A stretch of 64,000 nucleotides of DNA. It comes from Streptomyces sp. NBC_01353 (GTDB lineage: Bacteria; Actinomycetota; Actinomycetes; Streptomycetales; Streptomycetaceae). The position numbers and the translations under genes are program-made. Positions 58,343-63,171 of this stretch are shown piece by piece. The notes below the pieces were generated by a model, which was not told the DNA's origin, ran no database searches, and saw nothing but the letters and a program-made list of their open reading frames with translations. Location of the stretch: the NCBI RefSeq assembly GCF_036237275.1, contig NZ_CP108352.1, forward strand, positions 186,001 through 250,000, given 5' to 3'. Numbering within the stretch: the stretch's first letter is position 1; each line of letters starts with the position of its first letter.

Positions 58343-58367
58343 AGTCAGGCGACTTAGTCGTATGACC
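58343..58367. promoter_or_regulatory. TetR-type operator, site 1
   Basis: AGTCA-N3-GACTTAGTC-N3-TGACC, upstream of the BVMO gene. Same 25-bp layout as the sites at 59465 and 63147. Confidence 0.75.
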
Positions 58368-58439
58368 AACGGAATCTAGCCACGGGCTCGACTGCCGTCA
58401 ATAGTCGAATGCGAGTCGATTCACCCCGGCTGCGCGCGC

Positions 58440-59411
58440 TCAGGCGCCGGCAACGGCTCGCAGGTGGCGCGCCACCTGCGAGATCGCCTCGTCCGTCCTG
58501 GCGAACACGCCCACTTCGGTGAAGAAGCCGTGGAACACGCCGGCACAGCGGGTCACGGTGACCTCCACTCCGTCACGCCGCAACCTCTCGGCATACGCCT
58601 CGGCGTCGTCGCGAAGCGGGTCGACCTCAGCGGTGAGAACGAGCGCCGGCGGGAGATCCCGCAATGATGCGGCGTGCATGGGGGCCGCGTAGTGATCGAC
58701 CGTTCCCGCGTGGCCAGGTCCGAGGTACTGCTCCCAGAACCAGCGGGCATCCGCGCTGGTCAATAGGGGTGCGTCGGCGAACTCCGTCCAGGACGGGGTG
58801 GCGAACGTGTCGTCGACGGCGGGGTAGACGAGCACTTGGGACACGGGCCGAGCGAGCCCCAGGTCCCGGAGCTTGAGGCACAACGCGGCAGCCAGACTGC
58901 CGCCGGCGGAGTCTCCCCCGACGGCGATCGTGTGCGGGTCGATGCCGAACCTCGGAGCCGAGCGGCGCAGCCAGGCGAACGCGTCGAAGCAGTCGTCGAG
59001 CGCTGCGGGATAGGGGTTCTCGGGCGCGAGTCGGTACTCCAGGGAGAACACCGCCCACCCGGAGCGGGCGGCGATCGCGCGGCAGACCTCGTCCACTCCG
59101 TCGAGGGTGCCGAGGACAAAGCCGCCACCGTGCAGATAGACCAGCGCCGGGCGCGGTCCGGCGGACGCCGGTGGACCGTCCGGATGGTAGAGGCGTGCGC
59201 GGAGCTCGCCGGAGCGGACAGAAAGAGAAAGGTGTTCGATCCGGTCGAGAGGGGTGATGGGCTGCTCCGCCGGCGACGTCGCCAGGAGCTTCCGTGCCGC
59301 TTCCGCACCCAGTTCGCGTACGGGTTTCTCGAGGGTTGCGGCGATGAATCGCGCCACGGACTGCGCATCGGGATCCAGCTGCTCCCAGCACGGGGGCTTC
59401 ACTTCATTCAC
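58440..59411 (-). CDS. HSL-family alpha/beta hydrolase (esterase)
   Basis: 323 residues. Oxyanion motif LVYLHGGGFVLG (HGGG at 94-97), nucleophile elbow GGDSAGGS (Ser168), Asp264 in AEVDPLRDD and His294 in GVFHGFF form the triad of the hormone-sensitive-lipase family. It probably hydrolyses the ester or lactone made by the BVMO. Own promoter with operator site 2 54 bp upstream; divergent from the SCP2/GS/PuuD operon. Confidence 0.92.
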   Translation of the reverse strand: MNEVKPPCWEQLDPDAQSVARFIAATLEKPVRELGAEAARKLLATSPAEQPITPLDRIEHLSLSVRSGELRARLYHPDGPPASAGPRPALVYLHGGGFVLGTLDGVDEVCRAIAARSGWAVFSLEYRLAPENPYPAALDDCFDAFAWLRRSAPRFGIDPHTIAVGGDSAGGSLAAALCLKLRDLGLARPVSQVLVYPAVDDTFATPSWTEFADAPLLTSADARWFWEQYLGPGHAGTVDHYAAPMHAASLRDLPPALVLTAEVDPLRDDAEAYAERLRRDGVEVTVTRCAGVFHGFFTEVGVFARTDEAISQVARHLRAVAGA

Positions 59412-59464
59412 TGTGGGGCCTCTCCGAAGTCATTGACAGGTCGCGACCTGTACCCCACCATCCT

Positions 59465-59489
59465 AGTCACCTGATCTAGTCACTTGACC
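59465..59489. promoter_or_regulatory. TetR-type operator, site 2
   Basis: AGTCA-N3-GATCTAGTC-N3-TGACC between the divergent esterase and SCP2-like genes, able to control both. Confidence 0.75.
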
Positions 59490-59569
59490 ATGATGATCAC
59501 GGTCCATCCGAGATCCGAAGCGTCCGATTCGCGGCGCGTGTGATCTCCCGAAGTCGAAAGGACTGGAGG

Positions 59570-61598: not shown

Positions 61599-62368
61599 CC
61601 CCGACGGGCGACGCGCCGACCGCGGTGCGGCCGCTGATCGGCATCACCGGCCGGCGGATCCGGCTGGACCTCATCAAGGGTGCGGACCGCCGGTACGGCG
61701 ATCGCTGCGCCGACAGCTACATGTCCGACTACGCGATCCGGATCGCACAGGCCGGCGGTCTCCCCGTGAACCTCTCGTACGAGACGGATGCGGAGGCGGT
61801 CTGCCACTGGCTGGCCGGCGTCGTCATCACCGGTGGGCAGGACCTCCATCCGGAGTGCTGGGGAGGCGACCCGTCCGTGGTCCGCCACGTCGACCCGCGT
61901 GCGGACCCGATGGTCCACGACGTCGAGCGGGACAGGTATGAACTCGCGCTCGTACGTGCCGCGCTCGACCGGGGGATTCCGGTGCTCGCCGTGTGCCGGG
62001 GCATGCAGGTCCTCAACGTCGCGCTCGGCGGCACGCTCATCGCCGACCTTCCGCCCGGCGAGGTGCGGCATCTGTCGCAGGAGGCCGCGCTCACCGACGG
62101 CACGGACGATCACGTCGTGACCTTCGAGGCAGGCTCGATCGTGGCGGGACTGTTCGGAGCGCGGGCCGTCACCAACTCGTGGCACCACCAGGCCGTCGAT
62201 CGCTGCGGCACGGGGCTTCTCGTCACGGGCCGGACGGCCGACGGTGTGGTCGAGGCGGTGGAGATTCCGGACGCACCGGTTCTGGGAGTCCAGTGGCACC
62301 CGGAATGGATGGAGAGCGACGATCCGACGATGACGTGGATCGTCGAGGAATCCGTCAAACGCCTATGA
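61595..62368 (+). CDS. gamma-glutamyl hydrolase, class I GATase-like (PuuD-like)
   Basis: 257 residues from GTG 61595, overlapping the preceding stop. Triad: Cys134 in VLAVCRGMQVLN, His235 and Glu237 in GVQWHPEWM. HHQAVD and GGQDLHPE are typical of gamma-glutamyl-gamma-aminobutyrate hydrolases. It would release glutamate and the processed carboxylate at the end of a gamma-glutamylation pathway. Confidence 0.92.
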   Translation: MTPTGDAPTAVRPLIGITGRRIRLDLIKGADRRYGDRCADSYMSDYAIRIAQAGGLPVNLSYETDAEAVCHWLAGVVITGGQDLHPECWGGDPSVVRHVDPRADPMVHDVERDRYELALVRAALDRGIPVLAVCRGMQVLNVALGGTLIADLPPGEVRHLSQEAALTDGTDDHVVTFEAGSIVAGLFGARAVTNSWHHQAVDRCGTGLLVTGRTADGVVEAVEIPDAPVLGVQWHPEWMESDDPTMTWIVEESVKRL

Positions 62369-62449
62369 CTAGGCCGACCCGAGGGCGTCGGCGTGCTGCC
62401 GGCGGGCAGACGCACTCGGGTCCGGTCAAGGGCCGTCCATGGTCGGTGA

Positions 62450-63076
62450 TCAGGCGAGCTTCGCGGCCAGCCACGCATCGAGCACATCGACCACGATCTC
62501 TGCCTGCTCGGCGGCTCGGTAACGGTCGGCATATGTCAGCCAATTCACGACGAATCCGTCTGAAAGGGCACCGATGACGTAGCCGATCTGGTCGATCGCT
62601 TCGGGCGCGATGTCCTGTCCGGAGGCTGCTCTCGCGAGGATCGATCGCACGACATTGAACGCCTCGTTGTAGACGGTGACTGCCGGATGCTCGTCCTGGC
62701 GTTGCGCCCAGCTGATCAGCTCGAAGCTCGCGGACGCAAATTCCGAATCGGACTGGAGATACCAGTTCAGGAGTCCGCGGAGGAGCGCACGCGCAGTCGC
62801 GGCAAGGTCGCCGTGCACATCGTTCTCGATCAGAACCTCACGGTACCGCTCCGTCAACCGCTCGAAAACGGCTGCGAACAGCAGCTCCTTGGTCTGGAAG
62901 CAGTAGTGCAGCGTCGCCAGCGGGGCGTTCGCCTGCTCGGCGATCCGGCGAGTCGTCGCACCGTCAACGCCGTGGCTCGCGATCACTTGGATGGCGGCGT
63001 TCACCAGGTCGTTGCGTCGCTCGGCCGCTGGTACGCGTGCCACATCTGCCCCCGTCGAAGTCGGACGATCGATCAA
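62450..63076 (-). CDS. TetR family regulator of the catabolic cluster
   Basis: 208 residues. HTH: ASHGVDGATTRRIAEQANAP, LATLHYCFQTKELLFAAVFE (residues about 33-70). C-terminal ligand-binding helices without known sub-family. Operator site 3 lies 71 bp upstream, between it and the divergent dioxygenase. As the only regulator in the cluster, it is the natural owner of all three 25-bp sites and would release them on binding a pathway compound. Confidence 0.92.
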   Translation of the reverse strand: MIDRPTSTGADVARVPAAERRNDLVNAAIQVIASHGVDGATTRRIAEQANAPLATLHYCFQTKELLFAAVFERLTERYREVLIENDVHGDLAATARALLRGLLNWYLQSDSEFASASFELISWAQRQDEHPAVTVYNEAFNVVRSILARAASGQDIAPEAIDQIGYVIGALSDGFVVNWLTYADRYRAAEQAEIVVDVLDAWLAAKLA

Positions 63077-63146
63077 GTCGGCATCCAGGCTACCAGGCGG
63101 TTTGTCCGCATCGGCCGATGCGGTAGCTCCCCCAATCGAAATAGTT

Positions 63147-63171
63147 GGTCAGATGACTTGATCGGATGACC
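63147..63171. promoter_or_regulatory. TetR-type operator, site 3
   Basis: GGTCA-N3-GACTTGATC-N3-TGACC, roughly midway between the divergent tetR and dioxygenase starts. Confidence 0.78.

Follow-up and report, generated by a model that had tools for sequence, protein, structure and literature searches.

The window analysed here is a stretch of 64,000 nucleotides from Streptomyces sp. NBC_01353 (positions 186,001 to 250,000 of contig NZ_CP108352.1, C1:186001-250000 of its genome), near the end of which a tetR gene lies in a cluster with genes for a Baeyer-Villiger monooxygenase (BVMO)-like protein, an esterase, an SCP2-like protein, a glutamine-synthetase-like ligase (GS), a PuuD-like gamma-glutamyl hydrolase and a PhyH dioxygenase. 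An earlier note on this DNA had claimed that three sites of one layout, each in a promoter gap of the cluster, belong to a single TetR regulon with a predictable operator. The predicted operators, the predicted repressor gene and an element in the leader of that gene are:

58343..58367, operator 1, before the BVMO gene; AGTCA-GG-CGACT-T-AGTCG-TA-TGACC, 4/4 half-sites
59465..59489, operator 2, between the divergent esterase and SCP2-like genes; AGTCA-CC-TGATC-T-AGTCA-CT-TGACC, 4/4 half-sites
63147..63171, operator 3, between the divergent tetR and PhyH genes; GGTCA-GA-TGACT-T-GATCG-GA-TGACC, 4/4 half-sites
62450..63043, minus strand, tetR, predicted repressor of 197 amino acids; GTG start chosen by eye and from an alignment
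63059..63079, minus strand, tetR leader element GACTTGATCGATCGTCCGACT; about 3/4 half-sites, scoring 1, 5, 5 and 4 of 5 in the operator register

All three operators matched RGTCANNNGAYYTRRTCNNNTGACC with 0 mismatches in a pattern search of the window, and the runner-up, at 27036, had 2 mismatches. At 3 mismatches or fewer on both strands there were 8 matches in the window, compared to a mean of 0.16 and a maximum of 2 in 100 shuffles. Across the whole genome (8,565,674 bases) only the three operators matched RGTCANNNGAYYTRRTCNNNTGACC at 0 or 1 mismatch, and a looser symmetric pattern found them alone at 0 mismatches, with one further place at 1 mismatch and another ten at 2. The RGTCANNNGAYYTRRTCNNNTGACC pattern was derived from the three sites themselves, making these match counts partly circular, and so outside (held-out) evidence was relied upon. 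A weight matrix whose training set was 24 sites (23 distinct), all of them in three Nocardia and three clade-2 Streptomyces, placed the operators at ranks 1-3 in the window (scores of 36.2, 35.1 and 33.8) with a gap of 23 to the next score of 10.8, which bears out the note's statement that the window holds no further such site. A sequence-only profile from the 23 held-out sites likewise reported only the three operators genome-wide at E<=10 (150 of 511 first-look candidates were scored).

No fourth strong operator was found in the genome by the pattern, the held-out matrix or the profile at E<=10. The best of the rejected candidates, C1:8026764-8026788 (L019 1501-1525), scored 17.3 on the held-out matrix against at least 33.8 for the operators and was without a profile report at E<=10; it is intergenic and precedes an NAD-epimerase-like reading frame, and is probably a chance match. 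A second candidate, at C1:3731394, scored 15.2 with the profile silent at E<=10, and the window match at 27036 (matrix score 8.9) was taken as chance. For comparison, presumed operators in relatives score down to 19.5 on the same matrix (L040 9872).

The distances from the operators to the gene starts fit the claim that each lies in a promoter gap: operator 1 stands 101 nt before the BVMO start, operator 2 stands 54 nt from the esterase start and 81 nt from the SCP2-like start, and operator 3 stands 104 nt from the tetR start and 74 nt from the PhyH start. The same sites recur in related clusters. Homologues of the TetR were searched for in 391 genomes of the order, of which 14 gave a match at E<=1e-20 when 8 candidates were scored in each, and in GTDB contigs, which gave 11 loci; of six Streptomyces loci, five (L038-L042) coincide with five matches from the 391 genomes. 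These six Streptomyces (L037-L042) encode TetR proteins 81-89% identical to that of the window and have a common gene order, with SCP2-like/GS/PuuD, tetR, a membrane protein, an AMP-ligase/enoyl-CoA-hydratase fusion, an alcohol dehydrogenase (ADH), an aldehyde dehydrogenase (ALDH), a second AMP-ligase and an FAD oxidase, and the esterase followed by the BVMO. Only L037 of the six has PhyH and the major facilitator superfamily (MFS) transporter gene in place, and L038 ends inside the BVMO gene. Sites are present in all three corresponding gaps in 6/6 of them, the weakest (L040 9872) having 3 mismatches. In three Nocardia (TetR 63-64% identical) the cluster is rearranged, with the BVMO gene beyond ADH/ALDH and the MFS gene after the esterase, and five sites per species stand in front of the rearranged transcription units. 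Three clade-2 Streptomyces (TetR 51-54% identical) have three sites each, two more distant genomes, G244 (TetR 40%) and G151 (36%), keep an SCP2-like/GS/ADH/PuuD core together with sites, and at L046 and L047 sites are present with fewer of the cluster genes.

Two plasmids from other genera were looked at after the main analysis. That of Rhodococcus koreensis (TetR 60% identical) has four matrix matches scoring 25.9-39.6, and that of Tsukamurella tyrosinosolvens (TetR 58%) has matches of 38.8 and 20.6. The Rhodococcus plasmid (L100) carries two tetR genes, at 14001-14594 and 16556-17149, whose products show 60% and 59% identity to the window TetR and which each have an upstream site. TetR homologues of 32% identity were also found on two Pseudomonas plasmids.

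Specificity was assessed in 20 loci totalling 413,589 bases, 250,542 of them in homologues of cluster genes, with matches within 30 bp merged and L084-L086 and L087-L097 left out. Using a matrix trained on 28 of these or overlapping sites, 66 matches scored 20 or above; none (0/66) was inside a cluster-gene homologue and 59/66 were no more than 300 nt from a cluster-gene start. The remaining 7/66 were in L046, L047 and L099, where many neighbours are not homologues of cluster genes, and one of them (L099 14760) lies 60 nt before an annotated FAD-dependent oxidoreductase. In the 391 genomes, for which tallies were counted by hand from the result table, the pattern occurred at 1 mismatch or fewer in 69. 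Nine of the 391 had the TetR at E<=1e-60; a site at up to 1 mismatch was present in 9/9 of these and two or more within 30 kb in 8/9, while 0/382 of the genomes without the TetR at that threshold had two separate sites within 30 kb on the same contig.

The window TetR matches the Pfam domains TetR_N (PF00440; 1e-09, 38.4 bits against a cut-off of 24) and TetR_C_6 (1.2e-06), and its AlphaFold2 model is all-helical with nine helices and a mean pLDDT of 88.9. It is, on this model, a standard nine-helix member of the family, for which repression released by a ligand would be the expected mode of action, and a palindromic operator (operator 3) between tetR and its divergent neighbour PhyH is as expected of the family. 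Six distant TetR proteins (two in L046 and one each in L047, L081, L083 and L084) show 58-68% identity in the DNA-binding part and 20-26% over the remainder, and in the clade-2 proteins the values are 58-65% and 48-49%. TetR proteins in general keep the DNA-binding part better, and so this conservation is supportive only. Residues H46 and Y47 are invariant in 17/17 aligned TetR sequences.

Alignment of 36 sites gave the consensus tRGTCA-NN-YGAYY-n-RRTCA-NN-TGACYa, with the site columns far more conserved than most of the flanking columns, which are near random. The outer arms are conserved best and the inner arms nearly equally. The note had described the outer arms as exact, which holds for the invariant GTCA and TGAC but not for the outermost base, which is A or G. 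It had also described each site as one 25-bp dyad; the operator reads better as two abutting 12-bp palindromes at a pitch of 13 bp. Each half of the operator is itself a 12-bp palindrome, and the half-site RRTCR is hence present four times, two in each orientation; all three operators have half-site scores of 5, 5, 5 and 5 (by a consensus derived from these sites and their relatives). This arrangement suggests that two TetR dimers occupy each operator.

A related element precedes tetR itself. The motif [CTA]GACTTRATCR-NN-CG lies upstream of tetR in 13/13 orthologous clusters, 37-39 nt from the start (50-54 nt in clade 2), with a chance expectation in the window of 0.02 at 2 mismatches or fewer. 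Its 21-bp form GACTTRATCRNNCGNCCNACT occurs in 8/391 genomes, always beside the orthologous tetR (a reversed control gave 0 matches), and the ninth genome with an ortholog, G283, is one base off this form. The core of the element, GACTTGATC, is also that of operator 3. Among more distant relatives, five tetR leaders (two of them in L046, the others in L047, L081 and L083) have half-site scores of 3-4 on the left, 4-5 for the middle two and 0-4 on the right, with the best register chosen. A control with random 25-mers covers half-site sums of at least 18 and so has no bearing on the leader, for which the sum is 15. The element is probably a weaker, autoregulatory operator. The alternative that it reflects coding conservation from an upstream TTG start was rejected because, by eye, the frame relative to the tetR start varies among the relatives.

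Three candidate promoters could be placed beside or under the operators:

58373..58401, minus strand, candidate BVMO promoter, TTGACG-17-TAGATT, ending 5 bp before operator 1; from the scan and alignment
59433..59461, plus strand, candidate SCP2-like/GS/PuuD promoter, TTGACA-17-CACCAT, ending 3 bp before operator 2; by eye
63158..63186, plus strand, candidate PhyH promoter, TTGATC-17-CAGCAT, with its -35 inside operator 3; by eye

The assignments are helped by conservation judged by eye. In the BVMO gap TTGACG or TTGACC, 17 nt and TANNNT occur in 10/10 rows (the window, L037-L042 and L078-L080, a panel without Nocardia), and in the SCP2-like gap TTGACA-17-CANNAT ends 3 nt before operator 2 in 11/11 rows, Nocardia included. 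Upstream of PhyH or the gene that takes its place, operator 3 contains a -35 of TTGATC (TCGATC in L040), accompanied by a -10 resembling CAGCAT; Nocardia and clade 2 are ambiguous. The sequence TAGGAT beside operator 2 was considered for the esterase promoter, but its conserved letters fit the opposite-strand SCP2-like promoter equally well. Since the operators lie at the start point or over the -35, steric occlusion is the likely means of repression.

We consider it very probable that the three sites are operators of the TetR encoded at 62450-63043, with, probably, two dimers at each blocking the promoters, the TetR limiting its own synthesis and an inducer releasing about 15 genes. The note's single TetR regulon with a predictable operator is upheld by sites in the corresponding gaps across genera, by the conservation of the site columns, by co-occurrence with the TetR and by the failure of the genome searches to find any other site. 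Several observations weigh against this reading. Among the distant TetR loci, G042 (34% identical) is without a matrix match of 11 or above, and G165 (31%) and G074 (39%) reach only 13.5 and 12.3 at best. The promoter scan of 54000-64000 found 1 match, that of the BVMO promoter, where 0.6 are expected by chance, so that the scan match alone means little, and no esterase promoter could be assigned. Only 3/51 sites have the extra units needed to demonstrate a repeating module. Finally, a match, either single or overlapping, occurs in 60/382 genomes without the TetR at E<=1e-60, compared to 22/391 for a reversed-pattern control, so similar motifs exist beyond this regulon; when 30 such loci of 3 kb were fetched, six contained a TetR of the window family, one of them weakly. 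Such motifs in genomes without this TetR would also be expected if another regulator, encoded elsewhere, bound the sites while the TetR acted elsewhere or only on itself. This is very improbable, as clusters of sites accompany this TetR in the 391 genomes and on plasmids of other genera, in the orthologous clusters the gap between tetR and the gene divergent from it contains a site, and conservation of the DNA-binding part goes along with the presence of the sites. Scarcely more probable is that the TetR binds the operators but activates, as a minority of TetR proteins do, AtrA being an example in one study (PMC3511530); the operators cover the start point or the -35 and do not lie upstream of the -35, and in the same study five of five tested TetRs with intergenic gaps below 200 bp repressed their divergent neighbour, the tetR-PhyH gap here being 201 nt to the chosen start.

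Two further alternatives leave the regulon as it is and concern the form of its sites. Each 25-bp site might be one long dyad for a single TetR dimer, with the inner GAYYNRRTC acting as a spacer or shape element, and the best-conserved columns are indeed those of the outer arms, while most sites hold exactly two units, a count which fits. We think this unlikely, though less so than the two alternatives above: the inner arms are a reversed half-site conserved almost as well as the outer ones, an extra unit occurs at the 13-bp pitch in 3/51 sites, most clearly as a third 12-bp unit in L037 (13597-13634), and the tetR leader element retains the inner pair where an outer arm is lost. A palindrome with an N2 centre and specific bases to about 6 positions out is moreover of ordinary size for one TetR dimer, as in the TetR and RutR operators. 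There is a greater, though still minority, chance that the leader element is the site of a second regulator or acts at the mRNA level. One of its arms is lost (1 of 5), the sequence CCAACT outside its half-sites is also conserved, and neither plasmid locus yielded its strict form, L100 having a variant by eye. Its place as a weak operator is favoured by the core shared with operator 3 and by the operator-like sites, with a different arm reduced, at the same place in the five distant leaders, for which the best register was picked.

What the DNA itself shows is the sites, how well they are conserved, that they accompany this TetR and that they overlap conserved promoter-like hexamers; binding, repression, the presence of two dimers on each operator, the reach of the operons and the inducer are inferred. 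TetR would bind the three operators, probably as two dimers side by side on each. At the BVMO and SCP2-like/GS/PuuD promoters the dimers would lie over the start point, and at the PhyH promoter over the -35, blocking transcription. TetR would also limit its own synthesis, probably through operator 3 and the weaker leader element with its three half-sites. About 15 genes would be turned on together once TetR is released by a small molecule from the pathway, which may be the substrate itself or else a CoA or gamma-glutamyl intermediate.

The regulator appears new but ordinary in kind, and it is the layout of its operator that is of interest. The TetR-family protein MAB_4384 of Mycobacterium abscessus has an operator of 27 bp in which 1 nt separates two inverted sequences of 13 nt, and a window operator with one flanking base per side is likewise 13+1+13 bp; the comparison is one of layout, and MAB_4384 controls the MmpS5/MmpL5 efflux pump (PMC5895659). 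CprB and DarR bind as a dimer of dimers, as does QacR according to those papers, and with four half-sites each the window operators resemble those of these systems, two dimers per operator being the predicted stoichiometry here. DarR tolerates one poor half-site of four (compare the roughly 3/4 of the tetR leader), but its palindromes overlap in a 20-bp operator and the CprB dimers sit on opposite sides of 22 bp, whereas the window palindromes abut at a 13-bp pitch (PMC4150764, PMC10636190). EpuRI and EpuRII of Streptomyces coelicolor control polyamine and ethanolamine genes and are similarly local regulators of gamma-glutamylation with GS-like ligases in Streptomyces; their gene content differs (PMC8998196, PMC6529630).

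The predicted target genes within the window are:

54480..55952, minus strand, MFS transporter, probable final gene of the BVMO transcript (MFS_1, 3.1e-30)
56201..56584, minus strand, hotdog-fold protein, predicted target (near 3-aminobutyryl-CoA ammonia lyase NF052388, 152.8 bits against a cut-off of 160)
56578..58242, minus strand, BVMO-like flavin monooxygenase, predicted target (FMO-like, 8.1e-13)
58440..59411, minus strand, alpha/beta-hydrolase esterase, predicted target (Abhydrolase_3, 2.3e-72)
59570..60235, plus strand, SCP2-like protein, predicted target (without a Pfam match of its own)
60228..61598, plus strand, GS, predicted target (Gln-synt_C, 1.8e-79)
61595..62368, plus strand, PuuD-like gamma-glutamyl hydrolase, predicted target (Peptidase_C26, 5.1e-53)
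63245..64000 (window end), plus strand, PhyH dioxygenase (PhyH, 4.7e-33; start picked by its ribosome-binding site)

The SCP2 label comes from weak PF02036 matches in 7/13 homologues (best E 0.0011). The note had put nine genes under one regulator; the single regulator is strongly supported by comparative genomics, but about 15 genes are predicted, because by gene order and gaps (L021/L022) the PhyH operon would run past the window end and comprise seven genes (PhyH, the membrane protein, the AMP-ligase/enoyl-CoA-hydratase fusion, ADH, ALDH, the second AMP-ligase and the FAD oxidase). The others would be the BVMO, hotdog, MFS, esterase, SCP2-like, GS, PuuD and tetR genes. Of these the MFS gene is the least certain, as a 248-nt gap without an operator (no matrix match there) separates it from the rest of the BVMO transcript. 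PhyH stands beside tetR (L021 13246-14145) in the window genome, L037, L078 and L079, and in L038-L042 a membrane-protein gene follows the operator instead.

The gene content suggests a pathway of gamma-glutamylation of an amine, oxidation and CoA-dependent breakdown, and the substrate is probably an amine-containing compound. The hotdog protein (56201-56584) is a presumed thioesterase of the BVMO operon, and its closeness to 3-aminobutyryl-CoA ammonia lyase hints at a beta-amino acyl-CoA step. The Puu (putrescine), Ipu (isopropylamine) and aniline pathways of gamma-glutamylation pair a GS-like ligase and a gamma-glutamyl hydrolase with oxidative enzymes. The window cluster makes the same pairing but has other oxygenases and CoA enzymes, and its ligase and hydrolase fall far under the Puu equivalog cut-offs (GGputSyn 166 bits against 650 for GS; PRK11366 88.5 bits against 266 for the PuuD-like protein). 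It thus resembles Puu in logic at most and was not assigned to it. A search of titles and abstracts in the open-access literature, which mostly omits subscription papers, found no description of this cluster, for which the analysis supplies a ready operator and a nearly complete predicted regulon, with cluster homologues in Streptomyces, Nocardia, Rhodococcus and Tsukamurella. With the four predicted sites, half-site number could be related directly to affinity, and a reporter on them could reveal the inducer and hence the natural substrate of the pathway. More tentatively, and with the odds somewhat against it, the TetR may belong to a subfamily in Actinomycetes with a shared DNA code and fast-changing ligand domains, using a modular operator of 12-bp palindromes at a 13-bp pitch, with two units at targets, at least three in certain relatives and, at its own gene, a decayed form of three half-sites setting the repressor level, so that the number and quality of half-sites would be a dial on each promoter.

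Repeats resembling the operator unit were also met elsewhere. L087 5724-5774 and L088 5835-5885 (genomes G105 and G167) have perfect or near-perfect tandem repeats of 13 bp; no TetR of the window family was found near them in the 12 kb fetched, and they were kept out of the supporting evidence. Variants of the motif richer in GC occur at L090 5891-5928, at L091 5976-6000 and at L092 5820-5896, the last as five overlapping matrix matches at a 13-bp pitch. These three loci, which we treat as leads only, also encode a TetR sharing about 50% identity with the window TetR over its first 65 residues.

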